NCBI RefSeq assembly: GCF_001571405.1
Contig: NZ_BCNX01000006.1
Span: 248,001-312,000 of the forward strand
Direction of reading: 5' to 3'
DNA from: Methanoculleus thermophilus
GTDB taxonomy: Archaea > Halobacteriota > Methanomicrobia > Methanomicrobiales > Methanoculleaceae
DNA: 64,000 nucleotides
Part shown: in pieces, positions 23,310 through 50,505 of the stretch
Layout of the letters: each line of letters opens with the position of its first letter
Position numbering within the stretch: position 1 is the stretch's first letter
Program-made: the position numbers and the translations under genes
The notes under the pieces: model-generated
What the model was told of the DNA's origin: nothing
Seen by the model: only the letters and a program-made list of their open reading frames with translations
Database searches by the model: none

Positions 23310-23738
23310 CTCTGTACCTTCCTTTGGGGTGCGCGTGTGGGAATCCGAGCATCGTAGCGCGTCATGGGCAGACTCCCGGCCGCACCGGATCATGTACCGA
23401 TGGCATATATGCGTTTCTCTGACAAACGTCCGGTACGAAAAACCGCATAGATCGGCCATGATTGCCGGGGATTTGGAGAATCCCCCGCTGTCTCGCCTCG
23501 ATTAGGGGATCCGTTTACAGGGTGACGACGGGTACCTGGAAACCCTGTTCTTTTGGTCTATCGGTAGTCCCCTCCCCCTCAGTTGAGCATGACTAAATAC
23601 CATTTTTAACGCGCTTTTTTCTAATTTGGTGGTATATTCGGGGGCTATTCCTAAAAATAGGAAAAATTTTGCCCCATTATTAAATTTATGGCTGTTATAA
23701 CCGAAAACATTAAAAAATCAAGTGATAGATGATCTCTA
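23310..23738. other. divergent intergenic region tusA / pdaD
   Basis: 429 bases without a supported gene. The part next to tusA is of average composition. From about 23580 on it becomes AT-rich and holds a TATA-like TAAATTTATG near 23681-23690 for the plus-strand gene. A perfect inverted repeat TTCCTA-AAAA-TAGGAA lies at 23648-23663, itself flanked by GGGGC (23641) and GCCCC (23671). This could be an operator or a hairpin. Confidence 0.5.
23404..23428 (-). promoter_or_regulatory. probable tusA promoter, weak copy of the island motif
   Basis: On the minus strand TTTGTC, two bases, AGAAAC, then a TATA-like GCATATATG. It keeps the order and spacing of the motif found before the envelope-island genes, with several substitutions. 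Predicted transcription start near 23380, leaving a leader of about 70 bases. Confidence 0.45.
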
Positions 23739-35744: not shown

Positions 35745-35770
35745 GTTCCTCCTATATCCCTTTTCTGTCA
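35745..35770 (-). promoter_or_regulatory. island promoter motif, copy for the 35564 gene
   Basis: Minus-strand TGACAGAAAAGGGATATAGG followed by AGGAA. Matches the consensus TTGTCCCAGAAAAGGTATAT with a few changes. The TATA part (about 35752-35757) lies roughly 27 bases before the point where the conserved leader begins. Confidence 0.6.
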
Positions 35771-35935
35771 CGATCATCTACACGTCGGGGCATTGCATCC
35801 ATTTGGCTCTCTTAAATATGCCGCAGCCGTCAAGGACCTGTGCTGAGATGATCGATAGGAGAGACCTGATGCCAGGAGGTCACGCCAGCCGGTATTTGGC
35901 GGGTCCGGGGCAGTGTCTCTCCCCGGGGACCTCCT

Positions 35936-37516: not shown

Positions 37517-38650
37517 TTAGGTCTGAACGTATCCCCCGCTCCACTTAACCTTACAGAGATGACCCCAGGCGTTCGTTCCGGAAGGAGCGAAATATACGAT
37601 ACCATCAACAATCTTTTCCCAACCGTTTGAGACATCGGCCATCGCTCGGGAGATAACATATGTGCTACCATCTCGCGCGGATGACTGCGAACAGTATGAC
37701 TGCTGGCCTGGAGTGAATTCGAATGTAGTAGCTGCGCAACTGGCCCACAAGTTAAACTCCTCGTCCCAGTTATACGTGTTGCCATACGGGTGGTGAAGTT
37801 CAACACGTGTGTCAGGAATGGCGGTTGACCACTGAAGCACACAACCCCCGGTACCAAGAGAGAGGCCGACTGTCGTATACCCCGTCGTAGTCTGTGGATT
37901 ATTCTGGCTTACATAAACACCCGGCAAGTGCTGATAATAACCCGGGACGGAATAGTCAGAATCTATTTCCACATTAAACTGGTAGTTTCTATACGGCTCG
38001 TAACCAGATATATCAATGCCCGGATCAGTTCTCAAGGTCGTCTTTGTGAAGAAATAATCCTGATTCGAGTTAGTTTCTTGATTATCCCAGTACCATGTCG
38101 TTGTAAGGTACGCACGCCCGACACCAGTGTAGGTTCTACTTATCGTCGCGGTATGAATTGGAGTCGGTCCGTATGAAAGAAGCCCAAAACTGCCCTCTTT
38201 GAGAGACTCGGCTGTTTTACTCTTCAGCGGCCCATCAATCCAAGCATCTGCATGAGAAGATATTTCCTCCAACGAGGGGTTATCTTCGGATGAAACTACC
38301 TCTGCATAGGATACGCTCTCTCCATTTGGAAGAACCCGAAACACGTAAGCAACTACTTTCTCACCTTCAGATATATCAACTTCAGCTGTGCCGATATACC
38401 TCGGGGGGACATTCTTAAATTCTTCTTCAAAGGAACTCATTGCTGTTTGAGTCCTAGCGCTGATCAATTCCTTGGGTATTTCAGAATCAACAAGACGTAC
38501 AGTGTACTTTTCCATGTCATACTGCACATTTTGTTCGGTACCCTGAGACTGCCACACCTCTTCGACGGCCATGACCGGCACCAGCATCGCACTCATCAGC
38601 ATTACTGCCAGGAGTGTAGAAAATGCCCGCATTCCAATTTTTTCATTCAT
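37517..38650 (-). CDS. secreted protein of unknown function, first gene of island operon
   Basis: 377 residues with a cleavable signal peptide (MNEKIGMRAFSTLLAVMLMS, cleavage near VMAVEE). The mature part is rich in Tyr, Thr and Asn, with VLPNGESVSYAEVVSSEDN, ADAWIDG, SQNNPQTTTGYTT and a C-terminal NAWGHLCKVKW that recur in the next gene. It looks like a beta-rich surface protein. SD GGAGG lies at 38659-38663. A conserved 164-base leader and a strong copy of the island promoter lie upstream. Composition is less GC-rich than neighbouring housekeeping genes, which hints at different origin or relaxed codon use. Confidence 0.7.
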   Translation of the reverse strand: MNEKIGMRAFSTLLAVMLMSAMLVPVMAVEEVWQSQGTEQNVQYDMEKYTVRLVDSEIPKELISARTQTAMSSFEEEFKNVPPRYIGTAEVDISEGEKVVAYVFRVLPNGESVSYAEVVSSEDNPSLEEISSHADAWIDGPLKSKTAESLKEGSFGLLSYGPTPIHTATISRTYTGVGRAYLTTTWYWDNQETNSNQDYFFTKTTLRTDPGIDISGYEPYRNYQFNVEIDSDYSVPGYYQHLPGVYVSQNNPQTTTGYTTVGLSLGTGGCVLQWSTAIPDTRVELHHPYGNTYNWDEEFNLWASCAATTFEFTPGQQSYCSQSSARDGSTYVISRAMADVSNGWEKIVDGIVYFAPSGTNAWGHLCKVKWSGGYVQT

Positions 38651-38814
38651 TTCGTTTTCCTCCGATAGTGTCCCGGAGGCCGGAGAGGCATACCTTCAAG
38701 TACGGGAAGAGCACACGTTCCCTTTGCCTCCGGGCGCGCGGGACGTTCACCCATCCGATTCGCTACTGGTCGGGTGGACCTCCGCACTGGTGCAGGCGCC
38801 GCCTGCGGCACCTA
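38651..38814 (-). ncRNA. conserved structured 5' leader, copy 2 (family A)
   Basis: Counterpart of 35565-35728. Hairpin GCAGGC/GCCUGC lies at 38792-38806. GUCCACCC/GGGUGAAC (38772-38779 with 38745-38752) has one mismatch compared with copy 1. Stem CCCGGAGGC/GCCUCCGGG is at 38726-38734 with 38672-38680, enclosing a smaller GGGAA/UUCCC hairpin. The ribosome site at 38659-38663 can alternatively pair with CCUCC of the stem. Confidence 0.5.
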
Positions 38815-38831
38815 CAAGTGTTCACTGGTCA

Positions 38832-38863
38832 GTTTTGAGATATACCTTTTCTGGGACAAACAC
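38832..38863 (-). promoter_or_regulatory. island promoter motif, copy for the 38650 gene
   Basis: Minus-strand GTGTTTGTCCCAGAAAAGG followed by TATATCTCAAAAC, one of the best copies. TATA is centred near 38842; start of transcription predicted near 38815, exactly where the leader repeat begins. Confidence 0.65.
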
Positions 38864-39175
38864 CAACTCGACGTGCGGCTTTTCTGGAAAAGAGCAGGGC
38901 TAGCACCCCGGGATCGCTATAGGCAACACCGCCGGCAACGGACCCTTTCCGGGAGGAACCCCGCCCGATGACAAAAGCAGCGCCCGAAGGAGCAGAGATG
39001 TTCCAACTGATCCGGTGCAGGGACGCTCTCGGCGTTCACCGCGCGCAGGCCGCCCCGGTACGCCCGTACTGCATCAATCTCTTCGGATATGGCAGCTCCA
39101 GGCACGATACGGTCTTGTTAGTCCTCTAACACGTTCGTCTCCGGGAAAAGTGAGCGCAGAGGCGAGAATAGAATT
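38864..39175. other. intergenic region between divergent island promoters
   Basis: About 312 bases between the promoter of the minus-strand secreted genes and that of the plus-strand genes. Short open frames exist on the minus strand (38917-39105) but lack a ribosome site and protein-like composition. I see no other structure. Confidence 0.4.
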
Positions 39176-39206
39176 GGTGTTTGTCCCATAAAACTCATAA
39201 AACGCG
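39176..39206 (+). promoter_or_regulatory. island promoter motif, copy for the 39224 gene
   Basis: GGTGTTTGTCCCATAAAACT followed by CATAAAACGCG. Here CATAAAA (about 39196-39202) stands in for TATA, roughly 25 bases before the ATG at 39224, so this transcript would be nearly leaderless. Confidence 0.55.
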
Positions 39207-39223
39207 GATCACAATCCTTCTTC

Positions 39224-39676
39224 ATGGCATCAGCAAAGAGAAAACGCATGGCATTTGTCCTGCTGCTCGTCGTTGCCTTCCTTGCCGTGCCTCCCGTGTC
39301 GGCAACGGAAGGTGACGGGTACACGATTCGCCCTTCGACGTCGGACGACCCTGTGACGACCCTGCGGCTCTCCGACACCGTCAGTCAGGGCGAGACCAAC
39401 AGGCACCAGTTCTACGTCGGAAGCGGCGTCGCATATCTCGAAGTGTACCTGAACTGGGGATCGACCTCCGACTCACTGGCGTTGACCGTCTACGCCCCTT
39501 CGGGTAGTAAGATCGGCACGTTCCGCGACAACGCCGATGGCGCTGTAAATGGAAAAATTCATATCGACATTGACCCGGATAGTGGTTATATAAGTCAGGG
39601 GACCTGGACCTTCGATGTATACGGCGAGAAAGTATCCTCTCAGAGATCATACACCCTCAACCTCTACCAGCACTAG
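39224..39676 (+). CDS. secreted beta-sandwich protein (PPC-like)
   Basis: 150 residues. The signal peptide MAFVLLLVVAFLAVPPVSA ends near residue 28. The mature domain is all-beta in character (QFYVGSGVAYLEVYLNWGSTSDSLALTVYAPSGSKIG and GTWTFDVYGEKVSSQRSYTLNLYQH), reminiscent of pre-peptidase C-terminal domains that decorate secreted proteins. Standing alone it would be a small surface or shed protein. Its 3' end overlaps the regulator gene by 62 bases in another frame. The mature N-terminus GYTIRPS resembles the extracytoplasmic start of that regulator (YTVRPS). Confidence 0.7.
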   Translation: MASAKRKRMAFVLLLVVAFLAVPPVSATEGDGYTIRPSTSDDPVTTLRLSDTVSQGETNRHQFYVGSGVAYLEVYLNWGSTSDSLALTVYAPSGSKIGTFRDNADGAVNGKIHIDIDPDSGYISQGTWTFDVYGEKVSSQRSYTLNLYQH

Positions 39677-40445
39677 ATCGGGCAGGCTTCTCCGGCTGCT
39701 CACCCTCTCGGTCCTCTTTTTGGTGCTGCTGGTGTCTGTCGCCGATGCCACTGAATACACGGTCCGGCCCTCGAGAAATGTCGGACAAGAGCCCGGTACC
39801 TCTATGTCGGGCGAGAAGGTGCAGGAGATCGACCCCATCCCGCTCTGGCTCTTCCTGTTGCTGTGCATATTTCCCCAGTTGACGGCGGCCCCGATCGAAG
39901 CTCTTCTCCCCCTGAAGGCTGTCGGATACTTCGGGTACAGAAGGGTCTGTAGAGAAAATGCTCTGGACAACCCACGGAGGCTTGAGATCCTCAGTTTCAT
40001 CAAGGCAAACCCGGGGCTGCATTTCAGGGAACTATTGAGGACTATGTCCGTAGCGAGAGGGACGCTTGATTACCACGTCAGGGTAATGGTATCCGGGGGC
40101 CTTTTGAAGGCAGTGCCGGAGAAAGGAAGAATTCATTATTTCCCCGCAGATTCACGTTACTCGGCCGAGGAAGAGACCCTTATCATCGCGATGGAGAACG
40201 ACAGCCTGAGGAGGATCATACTACAGATCCACCTGAATCAGGGTGCACGCACCGAAGAACTCGCAGAGGAGTCGGGCCTCTCCAGGGCTACGATATATAC
40301 GCACGTCAAGCATCTGGAAGATCTGGGAATTGTACGATCGGAAAGGGCGGGACGGTCCGTGCGGTATGCCCTCACCGACGATTATTCCCGCGTATTGATG
40401 ATCCACCAGAACAGCAGTCCCGAACCCGCCCGGGTTTCGGTGTAA
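39615..40445 (+). CDS. predicted membrane-anchored winged-helix transcription regulator
   Basis: 276 residues. The N-terminus has a hydrophobic segment (LLTLSVLFLVLLVSVADA, about 28-45), a short polar stretch, and a second segment (IPLWLFLLLCIFPQLTAA). Two winged-helix domains follow (about 119-180, with NPRRLEILSFIKANPGLHFRELLRTMSVARGTLDYHVRVM, and about 190-260, with EELAEESGLSRATIYTHVKHLEDLG). The DNA-binding part would face the cytoplasm. Its placement inside the island makes it the best local candidate regulator of the shared promoter motif. The ATG at 39615 lies within the preceding gene, and no better start is seen before the first hydrophobic segment. Confidence 0.75.
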   Translation: MYTARKYPLRDHTPSTSTSTRSGRLLRLLTLSVLFLVLLVSVADATEYTVRPSRNVGQEPGTSMSGEKVQEIDPIPLWLFLLLCIFPQLTAAPIEALLPLKAVGYFGYRRVCRENALDNPRRLEILSFIKANPGLHFRELLRTMSVARGTLDYHVRVMVSGGLLKAVPEKGRIHYFPADSRYSAEEETLIIAMENDSLRRIILQIHLNQGARTEELAEESGLSRATIYTHVKHLEDLGIVRSERAGRSVRYALTDDYSRVLMIHQNSSPEPARVSV

Positions 40446-40711
40446 CATGTCGATGGATGGGCCCTCCCGAATGAGTTCGGAGTCCTGAGAGTTGCGGTTG
40501 ACATGTCTTCTCCACAAGATGCTTTCAGACACTTTTGCCTTCTCGGTTCTGATGAACGAGGCTACAATGCTCGACTTCCGCTGGTGACGGGTAGGTGCGC
40601 GCGCTTTGCATGCAACCGGCATCCGGGTACGGCGCCGGAGTAACGGGCTCCGATACCTGTAGGCCCACTTGTTTTTCATGTCTGGGGCCGTCGGGTGCTC
40701 GGTTGAGCTGA
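40446..40711. other. intergenic region downstream of the island regulator
   Basis: 266 bases with no supported gene. It ends at the promoter motif of the next unit. I see nothing else in it. Confidence 0.4.
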
Positions 40712-40744
40712 TGATTGTCCTAGAAATAGTATATGGGAGAACGG
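40712..40744 (+). promoter_or_regulatory. island promoter motif, copy for the 40921 gene
   Basis: TGATTGTCCTAGAAATAGTA followed by TATGGGAGAACGG. TATA centred near 40731; predicted transcription start near 40758. Confidence 0.62.
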
Positions 40745-40756
40745 CGAATCCTCCAT

Positions 40757-40920
40757 CGGTGATACCGCACGCGGTATCCCGCGGGGCCGGGAAACTCGAT
40801 TGGCGTCGTGCCCCGGCTCCCACAGCGTGCCCGGAGGGCGATAGGGCTATTGGTGCTCGGAAGAGATAGCCATTGTGGTCCTGTGTTCCTTTGGGTACCT
40901 TCTAAAACCGAGGAACGAAG
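40757..40920 (+). ncRNA. conserved structured 5' leader, copy 1 (family B)
   Basis: Similar to 44861-45046. Shared hairpins: GAUACCGC/GCGGUAUC (40761-40778), GCCGGG/CCCGGC (40786-40791 with 40812-40817), and GGCUAU/AUAGCC (40845-40850 with 40866-40871). In copy 2 two of these stems carry A-to-G or similar changes that turn pairs into G-U wobbles, so pairing is preserved. This suggests selection on RNA structure. Confidence 0.5.
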
Positions 40921-41331
40921 ATGACACAGAAAAAAGGTCCTTATATCAGGCCTGTACTCATGGCCCTGTTACTCGTGGCCATGGTTGCCGTGCCTGCGGT
41001 GAGTGCATATCAGGCGTCAGACTATGCGACGTCTTACAAAGAGACGTTGCCAACCCGGATCCAGTACTACGCTGAAACCGACGTGACCGAGGTAATGGAT
41101 GAGATCTATATCCAGGCAAGCCTCTGGCATACTGACAGCTCGTCAACCACCAGGGAAGTCAGTATTACTCCTATGGAGGTCTATTACAATGTGGATGACG
41201 CCGGTGCATATGGGGTGTATTCCAATCCTGCGCCGGGCGACTACCAGGCCCGAGGATACCGTGCGCTGGTCGAGAACGGTGTCGTATCGAAGAGCTGGTT
41301 TAATCAGAACGGCTGGACCCAGGTGAGATAG
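40921..41331 (+). CDS. small secreted protein (island family)
   Basis: 136 residues with a signal peptide (PVLMALLLVAMVAVPAVSA, cleavage near AYQ). The mature part of about 105 residues is rich in Tyr, Ser and Thr and ends NPAPGDYQARGYRALVENG and SKSWFNQNGWTQVR. The gene at 45047 shares the promoter, the leader, the signal type (VPAVSA) and a comparable C-terminal PPAGSYYTHTRAW segment, so the two are likely distant paralogues. It stands before three ABC-2 permease genes, as if it were cargo or a partner of them. Function unknown. Confidence 0.68.
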   Translation: MTQKKGPYIRPVLMALLLVAMVAVPAVSAYQASDYATSYKETLPTRIQYYAETDVTEVMDEIYIQASLWHTDSSSTTREVSITPMEVYYNVDDAGAYGVYSNPAPGDYQARGYRALVENGVVSKSWFNQNGWTQVR

Positions 41332-41425: not shown

Positions 41426-42427
41426 ATGCACGTAATCCGGAACAACTCCTTGACCGGAGGTGGCCTGCTGACGGTGGTGCGCAAGGAGTTTGCCGACCAC
41501 CTGACGAACCGGACGTCCCTCGTCCTCGCTGTCCTGCTCCTCGTGGTCTGCGTCCTCCCGTTCCAGCAGGGCCTTGCCGGATATCGATACGCCCAGGAGG
41601 CGTACGCCGATCCTGTCATCGACGAATGGGGTTTTCACGAGCCGATGCTTGGCTTGCCGAATGCCGCCGACGTCTACTTCCCCCTCCCGGAGGCCATATC
41701 GACCGCCGGGGCGATCCTGGCGATCGCCATGGGGTTCGACCTCGTCTCGCGGGAGCGGCAGACCGGCTCACTGAAGATGCTCCTCGTCCGGCCGATCTTC
41801 CGGGACGAGGTCATCACCGGCAAGGCGCTCGGAGGCCTCCTTGCTCTGACGGCGATCATCGCCGCCGGGATTGCCGCCTCGGTGGCGGTCCTCCTCCTTG
41901 AAGGGATCGTGCCCGGCCCGGATGATCTGGTCTCGATCCTGCTCTTTTCACTTGCAACGGTTGCGTTTCTGGCGTTCTACTTCGGCCTTGCCCTGGCAAT
42001 CTCGACGGTGGTTCCGCGGACGGGGAAAGCCTTTTTGTATGCACTGATTGCGTTCTTCATCTTTTCAGCCGTAATTCCGGCGGTGGGGGAGGTTACGAAG
42101 GACACCTTTGCCGGGGCTCATCCTCTCCCGGGAGCAAGCCCCTCCGAACGAGAGGAGCATCAGGCCCGGCTCGATCTGATCGAGAGTGTCGTGACGGTCT
42201 TTTCTCCGCAGTGGAACTACAAGCTGGTTGCAGCAAGCGCCCTTGAACCACGGCTCACCGCCTATTCATTCCTCGGGGGTTCCTGGGTGTTTCTCCCGGA
42301 CGACGGGAGCACCCGGCCGATGGATGCCCTCGCGTGGTTCTGGCAGAACGCGCTGGTGCTCTTTCTGGCGCCGCTCGCGCTCTTTGTGCTCGCCTATATA
42401 GCGTTCCAGAGGATGGATGTCCGGTGA
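41426..42427 (+). CDS. ABC-2 type permease, island copy 1
   Basis: 333 residues with about six transmembrane helices. A short cytoplasmic start carries RKEFADHLTNRTSL, and a large extracytoplasmic loop follows the first helix. The family hallmark is GFDLVSRERQTGSLKMLLVRPIFRDEVITGKALGG after helix 2, the coupling segment that contacts an ATPase in ABC-2 exporters. The last residues FQRMDVR are shared by all island copies as a MD(I/V)R or IDLR ending. GGTGAT precedes the ATG. No ABC ATPase is encoded in the island. Confidence 0.85.
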   Translation: MHVIRNNSLTGGGLLTVVRKEFADHLTNRTSLVLAVLLLVVCVLPFQQGLAGYRYAQEAYADPVIDEWGFHEPMLGLPNAADVYFPLPEAISTAGAILAIAMGFDLVSRERQTGSLKMLLVRPIFRDEVITGKALGGLLALTAIIAAGIAASVAVLLLEGIVPGPDDLVSILLFSLATVAFLAFYFGLALAISTVVPRTGKAFLYALIAFFIFSAVIPAVGEVTKDTFAGAHPLPGASPSEREEHQARLDLIESVVTVFSPQWNYKLVAASALEPRLTAYSFLGGSWVFLPDDGSTRPMDALAWFWQNALVLFLAPLALFVLAYIAFQRMDVR

Positions 42428-42434
42428 TGCCCCG

Positions 42435-43436
42435 ATGAGAATCGATCTTTCCCGTGTCGCGATCATCGCGCGAAAGGAGTTTGCCGACCACCTCACCGAC
42501 CGGACGTTCCTCCTGGTGCTCGCGCTCTTCGGCATCCTGACCGTCCTTGCCCTGCATGACGGACTTGCCAGTTACGCGAGTTCATTGCAGTGGTATGCAC
42601 TTCAGCTGGAGGCGATGAAGGCCGCCGTTCCCCCGTCGATACCGCCAAATTCCCCTTATATCCCGTCGACCATGTATATCCTCCTGGCCCCCAGGGAGAA
42701 TTTTCTCCTCTTCGGCCCGGTTCTCGCGATCGCCGTGGGGTTCGACCTCATCTCCGGGGAGCGGACGACCCGCTCGCTCCGGATGCTCCTCGTCCGGCCG
42801 GTCTTCCGGGACGAGGTCATCACTGGCAAGGCCGTGGGCGGCGCCGCCGTGCTGGCGCTCGCATCCGCCGTGCCGTTCATCCTGGCGCTGGGCGCGATGC
42901 TCGTCGCCGGGTTCACCGTCACGCCTTACGCGGCGGTGATGGTGGTGCTCTTCTGGGGGGCCACGGTCCTCTACCTGCTGGCATATTTTGCCGTCGCCGT
43001 CGCGTTCTCCGGGTTTGCCGAAGACGGCGGCCGGGCGCTTGCCTGGGCGATGGCGGTCTTCATCCTCTTCTCGACGGCCGTTCCCACCGCGGCCGGGTAT
43101 GCAGCCGGTCTGGCCGCCGGCCCCCTCCCCGAACCGCTCCCGGAGGACGCCCTGCCGGAGGGGATGCAGAGCTACCTGGAGGAGCAGAGCAGGTACTACG
43201 GGACGTACAACGGTGTTAGAAACGCAGTCCTGGCGCTCAGCCCAAACAGCAACTATGAAGGGATGTATGAGACGGTGGTGGAGGTTCTGGTTGACTATCA
43301 TGGCGAGGACGCGGTGACTCACGCCCCCGGAGAACTGCTGGACCGGCTCTGGCAGAATGTCGTTGCCCTCGTTGCGTTCCCGGCGATCTTCCTTGCCGTA
43401 GCCTATGTGCGGTTCATGCGGATCGATCTGCGATGA
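42435..43436 (+). CDS. ABC-2 type permease, island copy 2
   Basis: 333 residues from the ATG at 42435 (MRIDLSRVAIIARKEFADHL), chosen because GGTGAT, which overlaps the stop of copy 1, lies just upstream; an ATG six codons earlier is possible. It has six predicted helices and the coupling segment GFDLISGERTTRSLRMLLVRPVFRDEVITGKAVGG, nearly identical to copy 1 there and diverged in the outer loop. It ends FMRIDLR. The stop-start proximity to copy 1 implies cotranslation. Confidence 0.85.
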   Translation: MRIDLSRVAIIARKEFADHLTDRTFLLVLALFGILTVLALHDGLASYASSLQWYALQLEAMKAAVPPSIPPNSPYIPSTMYILLAPRENFLLFGPVLAIAVGFDLISGERTTRSLRMLLVRPVFRDEVITGKAVGGAAVLALASAVPFILALGAMLVAGFTVTPYAAVMVVLFWGATVLYLLAYFAVAVAFSGFAEDGGRALAWAMAVFILFSTAVPTAAGYAAGLAAGPLPEPLPEDALPEGMQSYLEEQSRYYGTYNGVRNAVLALSPNSNYEGMYETVVEVLVDYHGEDAVTHAPGELLDRLWQNVVALVAFPAIFLAVAYVRFMRIDLR

Positions 43437-43630
43437 TAATCGGATTTTGGGTGAAAAATGACAGATATCAAACATTCTCCGATAAAGAGATGGTTTATTC
43501 GGACGAACTGGTCTCGGTTGCCCGGATTGAGATGCCCGGATGATGGTGCAGCGATCTCGATGCAGACCTCCAGTCCGCGGCGGTGCAGGACTATTACGCT
43601 CTCGTCGCTCGCTGCCAGGGGTGGCTTTCC

Positions 43631-44674
43631 GTGACTTCAGGCTTGTTCGTCGTGCTGCAGAAAGAGTTTGTCGACCAGTTAACCAACCGACGCTTCCTCA
43701 CTATATTTGCATTGTTCCTGATCATATCCGTGATCGGCGTACACGATGGGGCAGACCAATACAACAATATGCTCGCATCGTACGCACAGCGGATGCAGTC
43801 CATCTCTTCCGATACCCAGATACCGGGATATATGCCAGAAATACCCTCGTCCCTGATAATTTTTACAAAGATGACCGATTACTTTGTGATGTTCGGGGTC
43901 TTCCTGGGCATCGCCATGGGCTTTGACCTTATATCGAAGGAAAAGGAGACACGATCACTCAGAACTCTTCTCTCCCACCCGGTGTTCAGGGATGAGATTG
44001 TGAACGGAAAAGCAATCGCCAGCGCCCTGGTACTGGCGATCGCCCTCGGTGCGACGATAGCAGTATCGGTTGCCATCCTCCTCATTATGGGCATTATTCC
44101 GACCGCCGACGAACTCTGTGCAATCCTGCTGTTCGCTGGTATATCTACGATGTTCGTCCTGACCTACTTCTCGCTTGCTCTCATGATGTCCACCGTCGCG
44201 CCGGACAGCGGAACAGCCCTCATATCCACCCTTGCAATCTTTCTGCTCCTCTCATCAGCCGTACCAATCTTAGGCTGGACGGCCGCCGAGATGATTGCCG
44301 GTTCGCCACCCACTCTTCCTGCCGATGCCCAGGGCTCTCATTACATCTCTAAAAACATCGATTCCAGTGAATTTGAGCAGTATGAGCGAGAAATGCAGTC
44401 TTACTGGGAGGGACGGGCTGCCGCATCATCTCTGATCAATTTGCTCTCTCCGAACGTCAATTACCAAAAAACTGCACTTGCTGTTACCGATCCGAAGATT
44501 GCCGTGACCATGGATAACAATCCATACTCCTTCGTTGAAGGGCCTCCGGAGACACAACCCGGCCTGGATGAAATTCTCGACAGGATCTGGGCAAATGTTG
44601 TTGCACTCATTGCTCTGCCATGTGTATTCTTCTCTGCCGCGTATGTTACGTTCATGCGGATGGACATCCGGTGA
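43631..44674 (+). CDS. ABC-2 type permease, island copy 3
   Basis: 347 residues from a GTG at 43631 that has GGGGTGG upstream and gives an N-terminus of the same length as the other copies (VTSGLFVVLQKEFVDQLTNRRFL). A longer frame to 43583 is open. Coupling segment GFDLISKEKETRSLRTLLSHPVFRDEIVNGKAIAS. It is lower in G+C and more diverged than copies 1 and 2, and lies 194 bases after copy 2, so it may have been acquired separately. It ends FMRMDIR. Confidence 0.82.
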   Translation: MTSGLFVVLQKEFVDQLTNRRFLTIFALFLIISVIGVHDGADQYNNMLASYAQRMQSISSDTQIPGYMPEIPSSLIIFTKMTDYFVMFGVFLGIAMGFDLISKEKETRSLRTLLSHPVFRDEIVNGKAIASALVLAIALGATIAVSVAILLIMGIIPTADELCAILLFAGISTMFVLTYFSLALMMSTVAPDSGTALISTLAIFLLLSSAVPILGWTAAEMIAGSPPTLPADAQGSHYISKNIDSSEFEQYEREMQSYWEGRAAASSLINLLSPNVNYQKTALAVTDPKIAVTMDNNPYSFVEGPPETQPGLDEILDRIWANVVALIALPCVFFSAAYVTFMRMDIR

Positions 44675-44815
44675 CGGCAGAGATGGGCCCAACCTAGGAT
44701 GCGCGCACCTCGCCTACCGCCGGTCTCCGGAGGGGATGCCGGAGCACCAGACTTCGTTGCCGGGAGAGCCATCCTTTTTTCCGATCCGAAACCTTCGGGT
44801 GCCCCGACGTTCTGA

Positions 44816-44848
44816 TGATTGTCCTAGAAATGGTATATAGGATAACGG
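44816..44848 (+). promoter_or_regulatory. island promoter motif, copy for the 45047 gene
   Basis: TGATTGTCCTAGAAATGGTA followed by TATAGGATAACGG; nearly identical to the copy at 40712-40744. TATA centred near 44835. Confidence 0.62.
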
Positions 44849-44860
44849 CTAAGTCTCCAT

Positions 44861-45046
44861 CGGCGATACCGCATGCGGTGTCCCGCCGGGGGCCGGGAAC
44901 CCCGATCGCCATCGTATCCCGGCTCCCAAAAGCGTGCCCAGAGGGCAAAAGCGTGCCCAGAGGGCAATAGGGCTGTTAGCGCTCGAAAGAGATAGCCGTT
45001 ACGGTTCCGTGGTCCTCCCGGGTATGCACAAAGGAGGAATGGAACC
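44861..45046 (+). ncRNA. conserved structured 5' leader, copy 2 (family B)
   Basis: Counterpart of 40757-40920. Hairpin GAUACCGC/GCGGUGUC at 44865-44882 (one G-U wobble), GCCGGGA/UCCCGGC at 44892-44898 with 44917-44923, and GGCUGU/AUAGCC at 44971-44976 with 44992-44997 (one wobble). It contains an extra 19-base tandem repeat not present in copy 1. Ribosome site GGAGG lies before the ATG at 45047. Confidence 0.5.
44928..44965 (+). repeat. 19-bp perfect tandem duplication in leader
   Basis: The unit AAAAGCGTGCCCAGAGGGC occurs twice in a row (44928-44946 and 44947-44965). The paralogous leader has a single, slightly different unit, so this is a recent slippage or duplication. Confidence 0.85.
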
Positions 45047-45505
45047 ATGAAAACGAAATCTCTTTCCGGAATCAGCGCCCTCATCGTGGCGCTGCTGGTC
45101 GTCGGCGCGATCTTCGTGCCGGCGGTGAGTGCAACGACTTCGGAGAACGCACAGGATGGCACTGCTGATACAACTACCCTGAATCAGGTTGACAGGAGAG
45201 GCGATGATTTCCTGGACTGTTATGGATGGCTCACCAAGGAGACAAACTGGATCCGATATGGTGGATGGGCGTGGTGCAGTTATCCGGCAGAGCGCCTAAA
45301 CATCAAGGTCTCTCTCCGTGACCGGGCCACTGATCAGGATCTGGGCTACACCGCTTACTCGGGCGCTAACCTTGATTACATCGAAGCGCAGGATAATCTT
45401 GAAGTGCAACCACCTGCCGGAAGTTATTATACCCACACCCGGGCATGGAGTGCAGGGCCGTCTCACGACGTATTACATAACTCTCCCACAATCACCTGGC
45501 CATGA
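45047..45505 (+). CDS. small secreted protein (island family)
   Basis: 152 residues with a signal peptide (LIVALLVVGAIFVPAVSA, cleavage near ATT). The mature part contains two Cys/Trp-rich segments (DDFLDCYGWLTKETNW and YGGWAWCSYP) and ends QPPAGSYYTHTRAWSAGPSH, weakly like the 40921 protein. The two cysteines could form a disulfide. GGAGG precedes the ATG. It is followed by the PepSY-like protein and a permease, the same order of small secreted protein before permease as at 40.9-44.7 kb. I do not recognise the family. Confidence 0.68.
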   Translation: MKTKSLSGISALIVALLVVGAIFVPAVSATTSENAQDGTADTTTLNQVDRRGDDFLDCYGWLTKETNWIRYGGWAWCSYPAERLNIKVSLRDRATDQDLGYTAYSGANLDYIEAQDNLEVQPPAGSYYTHTRAWSAGPSHDVLHNSPTITWP

Positions 45506-45579
45506 GGGAGCATGCTTATGAAAGAGACGGCCAATCTCCCCTTTTTTCTCAGGCCATTCCGCAGCTCAGGAGTTCTACC

Positions 45580-46509
45580 ATGACAAACAAACTCACAGGC
45601 ATTCTTCTCATTCTCTGCATAACGGGGGTTCTCATCGTCGCTGGTGTCTGGTTTTCCGTGACCGCCGCCGACCCTCTGCCGCCGGAACCGCCGCTCTCCC
45701 CCACCCCCGGGACGACGCCGACCGGTGACGGCATCACCGAGGCGGAAGCAAAGACGATCGCCGCTGCCGCCCTCCCTGATATCGTCCGGGCGGAGACCGC
45801 GAGGGTCCGGCTCGAACGCGGCCTCTTCGACGTCTCCGACTCCAACGCCACCCGGCAGGCCCAGGTCCGGGTCGATGCCCGGACCGGAGAGATAACCGGC
45901 TTTGTCGTCCACGTTCCGGCCCTGGCAGGCCGACCGGCCGAGCCAGTCCTCACGATGGAGGAAACGTACGGGATCGCGGAGGAGTTCCTCGCCGACCGGG
46001 GCGAGACTGCCGACCTCGCGGCCGCGGTCGGAAAGTACTACACCCCCCACAAAAACGAGCGAACCGGCGAAACGGTGGCCGGGTACTACGGTGTCGCCCT
46101 CCATCGCTCCATCAGGGGTATCCCCTGTGCCTGGAATGGCTGTTGGATTGACGTTGACGCGGTCACCGGCGAGATCCGCCGTTACGATCGGTTCTGGGAC
46201 CTCGACGCGGCGCGGTGTACGGCCGATACCGAACCCGCGATCACCGCAGAGGAGGCGGAGGAGAGTGCCAGGGGCTACATCCAGGACACGTACGGGGAGC
46301 TTTCCGGACTTACCTTCCGCTCCGCGACGCTCGTCTGGGCCGACAACTCCGCCCCGGCGACGGGTGAGGTCCCGCTCGCGTGGAAGGTCTCGTTCGACGA
46401 CGACTACTACCGGTCGCTGGGAACGCTGCTCACCGCCGCTGTCTTCGTCGACGCCCGGACCGGGGAAGTCCTTTCCTGCGACTACTACCGCCGCCCCGGG
46501 GCTGCCTGA
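45580..46509 (+). CDS. membrane-anchored or secreted PepSY/YcdB-like protein
   Basis: 309 residues from the ATG at 45580, which has GGAG eight bases upstream. An N-terminal hydrophobic segment (ILLILCITGVLIVAGVWFSV) is an anchor or signal, followed by a Pro-rich linker. The rest has three or so units of about 80 residues of the PepSY/YcdB type, each ending in a phrase like VRVDARTGEITGF, IDVDAVTGEIRRY or VFVDARTGEVLSC. These domains are extracytoplasmic and often act as inhibitors or ligand binders. It ends 9 bases before a permease gene and is paralogous to the 47834 lipoprotein. Confidence 0.78.
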   Translation: MTNKLTGILLILCITGVLIVAGVWFSVTAADPLPPEPPLSPTPGTTPTGDGITEAEAKTIAAAALPDIVRAETARVRLERGLFDVSDSNATRQAQVRVDARTGEITGFVVHVPALAGRPAEPVLTMEETYGIAEEFLADRGETADLAAAVGKYYTPHKNERTGETVAGYYGVALHRSIRGIPCAWNGCWIDVDAVTGEIRRYDRFWDLDAARCTADTEPAITAEEAEESARGYIQDTYGELSGLTFRSATLVWADNSAPATGEVPLAWKVSFDDDYYRSLGTLLTAAVFVDARTGEVLSCDYYRRPGAA

Positions 46510-46518
46510 GGAGGGAGC

Positions 46519-47535
46519 ATGGAAGTCGGGCGCATCTTCACCATCGCCGGGAAGGAGTTTGCCGATGCCCTGCGGGGCAGAAAGTTCCTCCTCATCTTGG
46601 GCATCTTCCTCGCCATCGCGTTTGTCGGGGCGATGCTGGGACTTCAGAATTACGCCTCGAATCTTGAGATCTACACGAAGGCTTTGAGGCTGGGAGCCGA
46701 TTTCTCGCCTCACTGGAGTATCCGGCCGACGATCCTCTACGTCTTCATGCGGATGGGAGAGACTGTCTCGATCCTTGGTGCAGTGCTCGGGATCGCCATG
46801 GGGTTCGACCTCATCTCCGGTGAGCGGGAGGAAGGATCCTTAAAGGTGCTCCTCGCCCGGCCGGTCTTCCGGGACGAGATCATCACCGGCAAGGTCCTCG
46901 GCGGCGCGATGATCCTTGCGCTTGCGACCGGCCTTGCCCTCACGATCACCCTCGCCCTCCTCCTCATGGCCGGCCACCTGCCGCTCCTCAGGGAGTTCTG
47001 GCTGATCCTCGTCTTTGGGGCGGTCACGTTCCTTTACCTGTTCGGCTGCTTCGGGATCGGGCTTGCGATGTCGGCCGTCTCCCGCCGGAGCGGGGAAGCA
47101 CTCCTCTTCTCCCTCTCGGCCTTCTTCATCCTCTCGCTCGTCGTTCCGGCCGCCGGAGCGGCCGTCGCCGATCTGGTCGTCGGGAAGACTCCGGAAGCGC
47201 CGCAGATCGTCGACGAGAAAGACCTGGATCTCTGGTATGCCTACCAGGAAGAATTCGATCAGCACTTCACCCTGCGAGCGAGTATCGTCCAGGTGGCAAA
47301 CCTCTTCTCACCGGAGTGGAATTACAAGGAGATCACGCAAGCGGTCACCAAACCCAACTTCTACCTGATCACGCACGGCCCTGCCGACGACTCCTTCTAC
47401 TACCCGGCCGACGCGGAGCCGGAGTTCGGTGTGATCCTCGGCTACCTCTGGACCAGTATCGTCGCCCTCCTGCTCATCCCTGTTCTTTTCCTCGGTTTTG
47501 CCTATGCCAGGTTCCTCCGAATCGACCTCCGATGA
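46519..47535 (+). CDS. ABC-2 type permease, island copy 4
   Basis: 338 residues beginning MEVGRIFTIAGKEFADALRGRKFLL, with GGAGGGAGC directly upstream. It has six predicted helices and the coupling segment GFDLISGEREEGSLKVLLARPVFRDEIITGKVLGG, and ends FLRIDLR. The outer loop carries LFSPEWNYKEITQAVTKP, matching NLLSPxxNYxx loops in the other copies. It is paired with the PepSY-like gene just before it. No ATPase adjacent. Confidence 0.85.
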   Translation: MEVGRIFTIAGKEFADALRGRKFLLILGIFLAIAFVGAMLGLQNYASNLEIYTKALRLGADFSPHWSIRPTILYVFMRMGETVSILGAVLGIAMGFDLISGEREEGSLKVLLARPVFRDEIITGKVLGGAMILALATGLALTITLALLLMAGHLPLLREFWLILVFGAVTFLYLFGCFGIGLAMSAVSRRSGEALLFSLSAFFILSLVVPAAGAAVADLVVGKTPEAPQIVDEKDLDLWYAYQEEFDQHFTLRASIVQVANLFSPEWNYKEITQAVTKPNFYLITHGPADDSFYYPADAEPEFGVILGYLWTSIVALLLIPVLFLGFAYARFLRIDLR

Positions 47536-47690: not shown

Positions 47691-47776
47691 CTTGGATGTC
47701 GAAGCAGCGCGCTCCGATGACAGATGAGCTCGTTCTTTCCCTGGGCCGAGAGCCTTCGAATGCCCGGATAAATCGG

Positions 47777-47808
47777 TGTTTGTCACAGAAAAGGTATATG
47801 AGAGAACG
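47777..47808 (+). promoter_or_regulatory. island promoter motif, copy for the 47834 gene
   Basis: TGTTTGTCACAGAAAAGGTA followed by TATGAGAGAACG, preceded by GG as in the copies at 39176 and 38863. TATA centred near 47796; predicted start near 47823, leaving a leader of about 10 bases. Confidence 0.65.
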
Positions 47809-47833: not shown

Positions 47834-48835
47834 ATGAGTAACATGACTCTCAACAAAACCAGTTGCACCCTCGTGACGGTGCTTCTCCTCCTGGCCTGTG
47901 CGGCAGCATCGGCGGGGTGTACCGGGACGAATGCGGATGAAAACGGATCGGCTGCACCGACGTCGCCGGAAGCGACAGCGTCACCCGGGGCGACACCGGC
48001 CCAACCGTCGTCAGGCGGCTTGCTCGGTGAGGAAGAAGCGCGTTCGCTTGCCGTGGCCGCACTGGAGCGGGAGATGCCCGGCATCCGGATCGAACGGATG
48101 GTTGCCGAACCGTACGATGTGCAGACCTATGGCGACGTCTGGCGGTTCCGGGTGAAAGCGGAAGACGACCCCGACCTGGAAGGCGATATCAGTGTATGGA
48201 TCGATGCCGCCGACGGGGAGATGGTGTACTTCCTGGATGGCCGTGACTATTATCGGCCTGCCGATCCCTCAGTCACGATCGAGGCGGCGGAGGAGATTGC
48301 CAATGCGTATCTCCGGGAGCGAAAAGAGAGTTCGGACGTCGTGAAGACCGTCGCTGTACTCTCTACGGTAGATACACCGCTGGGTTCGCGAAACGGTCCG
48401 TACCATTTCGTGTATCAGCGCTCGATCGACGGCGTCCTCTGCCTGTACGATGGGGTTACCCTTGATATTGATTCGATCGACGGCCGCGTTGTTTCCTATC
48501 ATAAAGCCTGGAGAGTATCGGACAACGACACTACGGCCGATCCGGACCCTTCGATCACCGAGGACGCGGCGCAAGAGCGGGTTCTGGCGTATCTCAATGA
48601 CACGTACGGCACGGATCCCGGCGAGATCGTTATCCGGGCGACCGAGTTGCGATGGTACGATCTGGCTGCACGGCAACGCCGGTCGCAGGAACCGGTCTCG
48701 GTACCTCTTGCCTGGCGCATCGAGTTCGACGACGAACGGTACCGGTCGCAGGACCCACCGCGAACCACCACGGTATGGATCGACGCGCATTCGGGGGAAA
48801 TTCTCAGTGCTGCATATGACAACCTGAGGAGGTAG
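47834..48835 (+). CDS. PepSY/YcdB-like lipoprotein
   Basis: 333 residues. The lipobox ASAGC ends the signal sequence (TLVTVLLLLACAAASAGC), so the protein should be lipid-anchored outside the membrane. A Ser/Thr/Pro linker leads to repeated PepSY/YcdB-type units, with ISVWIDAADGEMVYF, LDIDSIDGRVVSY and VWIDAHSGEILSA marking their ends. It is clearly paralogous to the 45580 protein (same repeat phrases, similar length) and is likewise followed by a permease, four bases after its stop. Confidence 0.78.
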   Translation: MSNMTLNKTSCTLVTVLLLLACAAASAGCTGTNADENGSAAPTSPEATASPGATPAQPSSGGLLGEEEARSLAVAALEREMPGIRIERMVAEPYDVQTYGDVWRFRVKAEDDPDLEGDISVWIDAADGEMVYFLDGRDYYRPADPSVTIEAAEEIANAYLRERKESSDVVKTVAVLSTVDTPLGSRNGPYHFVYQRSIDGVLCLYDGVTLDIDSIDGRVVSYHKAWRVSDNDTTADPDPSITEDAAQERVLAYLNDTYGTDPGEIVIRATELRWYDLAARQRRSQEPVSVPLAWRIEFDDERYRSQDPPRTTTVWIDAHSGEILSAAYDNLRR

Positions 48836-48839
48836 TCTG

Positions 48840-49868
48840 GTGGAACACGACGGGACGGCAGACCGGGTATCCGTTCCGCACCGCCTGCTCTTCGTGGCAG
48901 GGAAAGAGTTTGCCGACCACCTGTCGAGCCGGCGGTTCATCCTTGTCCTTCTTCTCTTCCTGATCCTCTGCTCCGTCTCCCTCTTTGAGGGCATCGAGGT
49001 ATACAGCGCGAGGCTTGCGGCATACTCGGGCGCTACGGGCGGCTGGGTGTCGCCGGTGAAGCCCTCCATCCTTGATGTCTTCCGCAGCCTCTCCTCGCAG
49101 ATCAGGAACTACGGACCGCTGCTGGCGATCGCGATCGGGTTCGACTTGGTCACGCGGGAACGCTGGTCGGGTTCGCTCAAAACCCTTCTCACCCGTCCGG
49201 TCTTTCGGGACGAGATCATCACCGGGAAAGCGATTGGGGGATTCGCCGCCCTGGCACTGGCGATGAGCATCGCGGTTCTCATCGCGCTCGCCCTGCTCCT
49301 GCTCTCTGCAATCGTCCCTTCGCCTGACGAACTCGGTGCGATCCTGGTCTTCTGGCTCGTTTCGCTGGTGTACCTCTTCACGTTCTTCTCGGCCGCTCTC
49401 CTCGCCTCGTCGGTCGTTGCCGAGAGTGGGAGCGCTCTTGTCTGGTCGCTGGTCGCTATCTTCGTCTTCTCCTCCGTCGTACCGATGGCCGGTGGCATTC
49501 TTACCGATGCGACTGCCGGAACGCCTCCGGCTGCGGTGAATACGAGCGACCCGCACTTCACCGAGGAGGTGTGGCTGCAGTACCGGGAAGAGCTGCGATC
49601 CTTCGAAGAGCACCGGAACCGTATCGCAATGACCGTCAATCTGCTCTCGCCGCAAAGGAATTACCAGGAGCTCTCGATAGCGATCACCTCCCCATGGATC
49701 TCGATGTGGGTCATCCCTGATCCTTTCGCCTTGCGGACAGAGGTCCCGCTCCCCGATCTTCCCGGCCTGATCGCTCTCGTCTGGCAGCCGATCGTGACCA
49801 TGCTTGCGTTTCCGGCGGTCTTCTTCGGAGCGGCATACGCCCGGTTCCTGCGGATAGACCTGCGGTGA
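48840..49868 (+). CDS. ABC-2 type permease, island copy 5
   Basis: 342 residues from a GTG at 48840 preceded by GAGGAGG. It has KEFADHLSSRRFILVLLLFLILC in the first helix region, the coupling segment GFDLVTRERWSGSLKTLLTRPVFRDEIITGKAIGG, six predicted helices, and a C-terminal FLRIDLR. It is paired with the PepSY-like lipoprotein upstream. It is the last gene of the island. Confidence 0.85.
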   Translation: MEHDGTADRVSVPHRLLFVAGKEFADHLSSRRFILVLLLFLILCSVSLFEGIEVYSARLAAYSGATGGWVSPVKPSILDVFRSLSSQIRNYGPLLAIAIGFDLVTRERWSGSLKTLLTRPVFRDEIITGKAIGGFAALALAMSIAVLIALALLLLSAIVPSPDELGAILVFWLVSLVYLFTFFSAALLASSVVAESGSALVWSLVAIFVFSSVVPMAGGILTDATAGTPPAAVNTSDPHFTEEVWLQYREELRSFEEHRNRIAMTVNLLSPQRNYQELSIAITSPWISMWVIPDPFALRTEVPLPDLPGLIALVWQPIVTMLAFPAVFFGAAYARFLRIDLR

Positions 49869-50002: not shown

Positions 50003-50275
50003 TTAGAACCTTCGATAAACCCTGCTCCGATGTCCGACCGTGATAACATGGATCACCAGGAGGTCATCTATGATCGAGAGGATCGCCCGGTAATCCCCGA
50101 GCCGGAGAGAGTAGAGTGGGGGGCTATTCGGGCTCTTCAGTTTTTTTAAATGCTTCTTCGGGTCGGTCTCGCCGGCGAGCGATGCAAGTTCCTCGCCTAT
50201 CTGGACTGCTATGGGTCGTGGAATGCTCTTGAAATCATGACGGGCCGCCGCGGTGATGACCACACGGTAGGTCAT
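50003..50275 (-). CDS. RelE/ParE-type toxin
   Basis: 90 residues of the RelE superfamily, beginning YRVVITAAARHDFKSIPRPIAVQI and ending YRAILSIIDDLLVIHVITVGHRSRVYRRF, with the Arg and His/Tyr residues common to mRNA-cleaving RelE toxins. It overlaps its antitoxin gene by four bases, the usual order of antitoxin first. Function as a translation-dependent ribonuclease is inferred. Confidence 0.88.
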   Translation of the reverse strand: MTYRVVITAAARHDFKSIPRPIAVQIGEELASLAGETDPKKHLKKLKSPNSPPLYSLRLGDYRAILSIIDDLLVIHVITVGHRSRVYRRF

Positions 50276-50505
50276 TCCTCCTTCAGCTCCGCCATGACCT
50301 CCTCAAGGGTGTAGACTCTCCCGGCCCTGATATCCTCAAGCGATCGCTCGATCTGGCGGATCGTCTCCTCACTGAGCGGCTCCTCGTCGACTGCCATATC
50401 TGCCAGGCGCTCGATAACCTCGTTATATGATTCCCGGGGATGGACTTTCAAGGCGTTGAGCCTGTCCCTGAGTTCTACGTCGATCTTGATGGTGGTGCTC
50501 GTCAT
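50272..50505 (-). CDS. antitoxin of the RelE-type pair
   Basis: 77 residues. The N-terminus TTIKIDVELRDRLNALKVHPRESYNEVIERL resembles a ribbon-helix-helix DNA-binding domain. The acidic C-terminal helix (SLEDIRAGRVYTLEEVMAELKEE) probably wraps the toxin. An 18-bp imperfect palindrome lies right before the ATG, in line with autoregulation. Confidence 0.85.
   Translation of the reverse strand: MTSTTIKIDVELRDRLNALKVHPRESYNEVIERLADMAVDEEPLSEETIRQIERSLEDIRAGRVYTLEEVMAELKEE

Follow-up and report, generated by a model that had tools for sequence, protein, structure and literature searches.

The window analysed here, a stretch of 64,000 nucleotides from the 2.22-Mb genome of Methanoculleus thermophilus, carries overlapping genes for a small secreted protein (the partner) and a predicted membrane-anchored regulator, together with genes for further secreted proteins and ABC-2 permeases (Table 1). 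As originally predicted, partner and regulator frames overlap by exactly 62 bases in different frames. The start codon of the regulator is less certain: one ortholog lacks the ATG at 39615, another has CTG in its place, and the genus g25 form, without any overlapping extension, seems to start just past the partner stop. The first of the three NosY-like permeases (41426) matched PF12679 with an E-value of 1.5e-38; this label and the TolB-like one used below are based on inspection of the sequences together with the ABC-2 Pfam match. The putative targets, which comprise PepSY/DUF4901, PPC and TolB-like proteins and NosY-like permeases, point to export and secreted proteins. Known RNAs of Rfam were absent from the window. 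A RelE/ParE-like gene and a small antitoxin-like gene adjoin the cluster (window 50003-50505, minus strand), and such a pair is also conserved near regulator loci in G024 and G006 (L099, L119).

Table 1. Genes, protein regions and boxes of the regulator locus, in window coordinates.
Feature	Position	Strand	Basis
Type II box (GATGATCGTGACAGAAA) upstream of secreted-protein gene 35564	35762..35778	-	
Divergent secreted protein, putative target	37517..38650	-	ORF call
Type I box, divergent secreted-protein gene	38848..38864	-	
Type I box (GGTGTTTGTCCCATAAA), partner and regulator promoter	39176..39192	+	
Secreted PPC-fold partner, 150 aa, mature start GYTIRPS	39224..39676	+	PF04151 E 1.4e-5, AlphaFold2
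Predicted membrane-anchored tandem winged-helix regulator, 276 aa	39615..40445	+	Pfam, hydropathy, AlphaFold2, orthologs
Regulator outer stretch, residues 47-76 (EYTVRPSRNVGQEPG...)	39753..39842	+	Column conservation among orthologs
Winged helix 1 (HTH_HVO_0163_N)	39972..40148	+	PF24266 residues 121-187; AlphaFold2
Winged helix 2 (HTH_24 / ArsR-like)	40200..40373	+	PF13412 residues 195-241; AlphaFold2
Box (GATGATTGTCCTAGAAA), operon downstream of regulator	40710..40726	+	
Secreted 136-aa protein, putative target	40921..41331	+	ORF call
Three NosY-like ABC-2 permeases (41426, 42435, 43583), putative targets	41426..44674	+	PF12679, paralogy
Box upstream of 45047 secreted protein / PepSY / permease genes	44814..44830	+	
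Secreted 152-aa protein, PepSY/DUF4901 exported protein, ABC-2 permease	45047..47535	+	
Box (GGTGTTTGTCACAGAAA) upstream of PepSY and permease genes	47775..47791	+	
PepSY/DUF4901 lipoprotein-like protein and ABC-2 permease	47834..49868	+	

Hydropathy, Pfam matches and an AlphaFold2 model established the anatomy foreseen for the regulator, in which two hydrophobic segments (residues ~22-46 and ~72-98) precede two winged helices (~120-178 and ~196-253). The first winged helix matched PF24266 (E 4e-16, 59.1 bits against a gathering cut-off of 31) and the second matched HTH_24 above the Pfam cut-off (E 2e-15). The C-terminal winged helix also gave a match to NF033788 (ArsR/SmtB) of 59.8 bits, over the family cut-off of 55, and single-domain PDB matches such as HlyU, CzrA and SmtB; the regulator itself is a fusion of a predicted transmembrane part with tandem winged helices. 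The AlphaFold2 model, built on a shallow alignment, gave the winged helices pLDDT values of 84-90 and modelled the membrane part poorly, with low confidence at residues 38-75 and 90-103, so that the topology rests on hydropathy and conservation. Both hydrophobic segments are conserved in the family, and the first may be a cleaved signal peptide, a reading based on an A-x-A pattern in the sequences. Orthologs with 68-82% identity are found in 14 other Methanoculleus genomes. In the phylum sample, strong PF24266-family matches are often found in open frames that, at only ~170-220 aa, are too short for the transmembrane plus tandem winged-helix layout. A second regulator of the same genome, a 69% identical paralog, lies ~66 kb away (G000:C6:221992-222777, L035) with its own partner, boxes and permeases, and is a possible cross-talk partner.

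The assignment of the partner to the PPC domains comes from a marginal PF04151 score (26.3 bits, cut-off 25.9) and from its fold, a beta-sandwich in the AlphaFold2 model whose best PDB match is Tk-SP subtilisin, with collagenase PPC and collagen-binding domains also matched. Most family members have a homolog of the partner as their immediate upstream neighbour, and this extends to regulators with as little as ~30% identity to the 39615 product. No partner was detectable in the subfamily of L023-L025, L027, L028, L030 and L031, which keeps a GYTVxPA-like outer start. One Methanoculleus clade (G005, G010, G015, G016, G027, G033) has a partner that is a pseudogene or carries an internal deletion, and one G115 copy is reduced to a remnant; in the clade and in G115 the promoter element and the regulator frame persist. 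Such repeated loss with box and regulator kept indicates that the partner is dispensable or modulatory.

The likeness noted originally between the start of the regulator's outer stretch (EYTVRPS) and that of the mature partner (GYTIRPS) is borne out by a search of the fetched loci, in which 257 of 608 predicted proteins have a hydrophobic segment at the N-terminus. A Y[TSI][VIA]xPS motif near the N-terminus occurred in 11 of these 257, and all 11 are the regulator or the partner described here, so the common YT[VI]xPS start is not due to chance. The motif extends to the outgroup, both in regulators (GYTVRPSQN in G137, GYTVHPSQN in G106, EYTITPSRN in G123 and G115, DYTVRPSLN in G085, EYTARPSLN in G073) and in partners (GYTVRPS in G137, GYTVCPS in G106, SYSVRPS in G073, GYIVRPS in G085, AYSISPS in G123). 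Across genera this outer stretch of ~30 residues is the most conserved region of the regulator: its mean column conservation in 22 ortholog sequences is 0.80, compared with 0.67-0.69 for the winged helices. The value falls to 0.41 in 27 other family members, and the outer tail is therefore strongly constrained in the orthologous group. A speculative and rather unlikely reading is that YT[VI]xPS serves partner and regulator as a common docking element, the N-terminal strand of the partner and the outer tail of the regulator competing for one groove. This groove would belong either to the PPC domain or to some third component of the envelope, and the amount or state of the secreted partner would then set the activity of the regulator.

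The motif originally thought to define a regulon proved to be a 19-bp core (TYGGYGTTTGTCCNAKAAA, the type I box) abutting a TATA-like element at near-fixed spacing. Within the window, TTGTCCCAGAAAA had five matches with up to two mismatches when 0.62 were expected. As a genome scan the exact-motif search was too narrow, giving a single site in the genome, and it was replaced by degenerate patterns with reversed controls. With the first of these patterns, 92 sites were obtained from 25 of the 35 Methanoculleus genomes, the reversed control giving three matches in those genomes. The regulon is real: all 83 distinct sites in the fetched loci are intergenic, at a near-fixed distance from a TATA-like element, which lies 3 nt past the box in 68 of them. 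A same-strand gene start follows within 350 bp in 59/83, probably an underestimate since the context was read with a home-made gene caller, and an opposite-strand start in 2/83. The architecture, a box adjoining a VRAAA-like BRE and a TATA-like element in fixed orientation, is thus established, with consensus GA.ttGGTGTTTGTCCcAgAAA.ggTaTAt in Methanoculleus and CaGTTCGGtGTTTGTCCcAtAAA in genus g25.

Several further features of these promoters were observed. The 5' leader after two box promoters (window 40596-40890 and 44700-45016) is conserved before the start codon (CGTGCCC.GAGGGC.ATAGGGCT); its copies are 72-77% identical, parts of it recur upstream of other genes of the fetched loci, and it could be a leader RNA or merely a recent duplication. 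The leader of the divergent secreted-protein gene (38650-38864, minus strand; ~200 nt from box to ATG) resembles other type I leaders, as judged from long sequence stretches in common in several Methanoculleus genomes. A lone box-like site (GACGTTTGTCAGAGAAA) with a TATA-like sequence (window 23414-23430, minus strand) lies upstream of a TusA-like cluster (23309-22806), away from any regulator, and may be due to chance. In genus g25, boxes occur in back-to-back divergent pairs 11-21 bp apart (L152 9484/9495 and 11202/11223; L153 5261/5282, 11653/11674 and 12909/12921), and in G115 a 12.5-kb stretch contains about ten boxes or near-boxes, the regulator of this genome being present in two tandem copies.

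The leaders bear on the idea that the box is promoter sequence that was inherited and duplicated together with secreted-protein operons, and is read by no dedicated regulator. The window does hold two 191-nt promoter-leader copies with 72% identity, and many targets are paralogous; nonetheless, the box keeps its sequence and spacing in front of unrelated genes (ATPase, PPC partner, TolB-like, PepSY), and in AT-rich genomes the flanks diverged while the box was kept, which leaves this account very improbable. The position of the box also raises the question of whether a bound regulator would activate or repress. Since the box ends in a putative BRE and abuts the TATA-like element, a repressor bound there would exclude TFB, and the second winged helix resembles ArsR-type repressors, so that the regulator might block TFB/TBP until an envelope signal releases it. 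However, the ArsR resemblance is one of fold only, and the near-fixed orientation and spacing to the TATA-like element over dozens of sites were taken as more typical of an activator. Repression is accordingly held to be a minority possibility, and activation is moderately favoured over it because the position of the box matches that of TFB-RF1 and EarA sites.

Association of box and regulator was examined in a class-wide sample of 199 genomes in which box pattern and protein were searched independently. Outside Methanoculleus, close orthologs (E<1e-38) were found in 6 of 165 class genomes (G073, G085, G106, G115, G123, G137). Clustered type I boxes occurred in four of these six and in none of the other 159 (Fisher 5e-7); this class was defined after the data had been seen, and the fairer figure is that for any pattern match, 5/6 against 6/159 (2.8e-6). 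Motif matches in G095 and G109 were judged to be chance, as they lie in or beside coding sequence and the usual TATA-like position is empty. All six ortholog genomes have a box or variant at or beside the ortholog; in all but G073 and G085 the sites are located at its own promoter and at the next operon. The whole layout is conserved in G137, in the order box, partner (72%), regulator (51%), box and homologs of 45047 and 45580. In G115 and G123, which represent one distant genus, the flanks have diverged, and a box precedes both the regulator and an ABC ATPase with NosY-like permeases; the regulator promoters of G073 and G085 carry the variants TTTGTCATAGAAAATTTATA and TTTGTCGTAGAAAATTTATA (pattern TTTGTC[AG]TAGAAA). 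Thus, co-occurrence outside the genus, proposed as a check on the original prediction, is positive and establishes the association across genera, clustered type I boxes being found only with a close ortholog and adjoining it.

Inside the genus the agreement is partial. Exact TTGTCC sites occur in 11 of 15 Methanoculleus genomes with an ortholog and in 3 of 20 without; most box sites are orthologous rather than independent, and linkage alone would hold box and regulator together in synteny. The four ortholog genomes lacking exact TTGTCC form clade C, whose own promoter reads TTGTGCTATAAA in the aligned loci; such downstream sites as were found in the clade have TTGTCACAG or TTGGCACAG. The clade C variants differ at type I-defining positions. 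Variants of the box (CCTAG / CCGAG / CACAG) track regulator clades, but this was discounted as evidence of binding, descent of the locus explaining the link. Three of the 20 congeners without an ortholog (G001, G013, G024) do have type I boxes, and a motif present where the regulator is absent is what had originally been named as speaking against the proposal. In one of them, G001, a secreted-protein gene is preceded by a perfect type I box (L160 5417) at a locus with no regulator, in synteny with the second regulator locus of the window's genome; this box is an apparent orphan left by regulator loss. The persistence of boxes in these three genomes, and the probability that part of the box is core promoter, would also fit a box read by another factor, such as a TFB variant or a soluble regulator, with the membrane regulator as a mere target linked by synteny. 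This explanation is nevertheless improbable, given that none of the 159 outgroup genomes that lack an ortholog has clustered type I boxes, and that same-genus relatives of the outgroup carriers with only remote homologs have none either.

A type II box (consensus GAcGtGTaGAcGaTTGTCACAGAAAacGTttATA) defines a second, related group, whose pattern has sites in 30 of 35 Methanoculleus genomes (31 of 61 overall, including that of the window) and none in controls. In Methanoculleus, 52 of the 92 first-pattern sites are at most 15 kb from a family member (4.2 expected), as are 14/54 once ortholog loci are set aside (1.9 expected); for type II the figure is 31/84 (3.7 expected). The promoters of p101-type regulators themselves carry type II-like elements (AACGTGTAGAGAGGATCGACAGAAAACTTAAG), and the matching ABC ATPase of the window's genome (C16:2672), with 88% identity to its G028 counterpart, is preceded by a type II variant. 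The box family is wider than this regulator, with the type II box at loci of related paralogs, and the sequences are reasonably read as a family of paralogous membrane regulators whose boxes are related. Every detail of the original observation that was checked held, and the earlier proposal that an envelope-reading regulator controls the motif regulon is upheld in part: the regulon and the co-occurrence outside the genus were confirmed, and the support, though strong, is indirect.

Known systems resemble this one in part. Like the transmembrane regulators termed TTRs (ToxR/CadC), in which Methanomicrobia are enriched according to a survey (PMC10269533), the regulator has a DNA-binding domain and predicted transmembrane segments in a single polypeptide, as seen in its two winged-helix folds with PF24266 and HTH_24 matches above cut-off and in the two hydropathy segments. 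ToxR has a partner protein, ToxS, according to the available part of one source (PMC7496328). In contrast to TTRs, the two tandem winged helices here follow an N-terminal membrane part, the outer part spans only ~30 residues, and partner and regulator have a common mature N-terminal motif. ArnR/ArnR1 of Sulfolobus acidocaldarius is likewise an archaeal membrane-bound one-component regulator with boxes upstream of BRE/TATA (PMC6396743). ArnR has one N-terminal HTH, HAMP and sensor domains and two C-terminal transmembrane segments, and its boxes are paired inverted repeats TCGAC-N5-GTCGA (PMC6396743); here the order is reversed, the transmembrane pair preceding the two winged helices, no HAMP match appeared among the families shown in the domain search, and the consensus differs from the ArnR box. 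In the HVO_0163-type tandem HTH proteins (PF24266), the family of the first winged helix, the added element here is the N-terminal membrane part; the literature search found no description of their function.

The closest parallel in promoter layout is TFB-RF1 of Pyrococcus furiosus. According to the accessible part of that study, its gene lies downstream of a membrane-protein gene in one operon, and it activates both this operon and a putative ABC exporter through a box whose distance upstream of BRE/TATA is conserved (PMC5937170). The putative box described here has the same layout, upstream of BRE/TATA at the regulator's own operon and at ABC-exporter operons. TFB-RF1 uses a palindrome, TCTGAANTTCAGA, with weak BREs, a box not common to the present regulator, and membrane anchoring, predicted here, is not stated in that part of the text (PMC5937170). 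As for EarA, the part of its report that was available describes how deletion of the BRE bypasses the requirement for the protein (PMC5512572). Searches on HVO_0163, Methanoculleus regulation and PPC/PepSY regulators retrieved nothing on a regulator-partner-box system, and the portion available of a paper on 'dark matter islands', which treats archaeal secreted and membrane islands in general, does not mention the regulator-partner pair (PMC4158269). As far as could be found in the literature, the proposed switch of regulator, partner and box in Methanoculleus has not previously been described.

Altogether, the locus looks like a direct envelope-to-gene switch, in which the regulator is probably a membrane-held one-component factor that binds the type I box and most likely activates exporter and secreted-protein operons on an envelope signal. 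From the sequences we infer DNA binding, the orientation in the membrane, activation over repression and the signal. The signal-like first segment would export the short conserved tail starting YTVRPS, and the second would anchor the protein with its two winged helices facing the cytoplasm. There, the regulator would bind the type I box immediately before BRE/TATA, both in its own operon and in the ABC exporter and secreted-protein operons, most likely activating them by placing TFB/TBP, as TFB-RF1 does. The trigger would be a change outside the cell, reported by the outer tail or by the secreted PPC partner.

Signalling from the envelope to promoters is little known in archaea, ArnR being among the few membrane-bound archaeal regulators studied. 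In this regard, the locus brings together a regulator with its outer tail and secreted partner, a 19-bp box, and exporter and secreted targets as a defined set of candidates, which recurs in several methanogen genera and is directly testable, and the recurrent losses of the partner are natural experiments on its role. The docking idea, if true, would amount to peptide-mimicry sensing across the archaeal envelope, in paralogous pairs of regulator and partner with related boxes.
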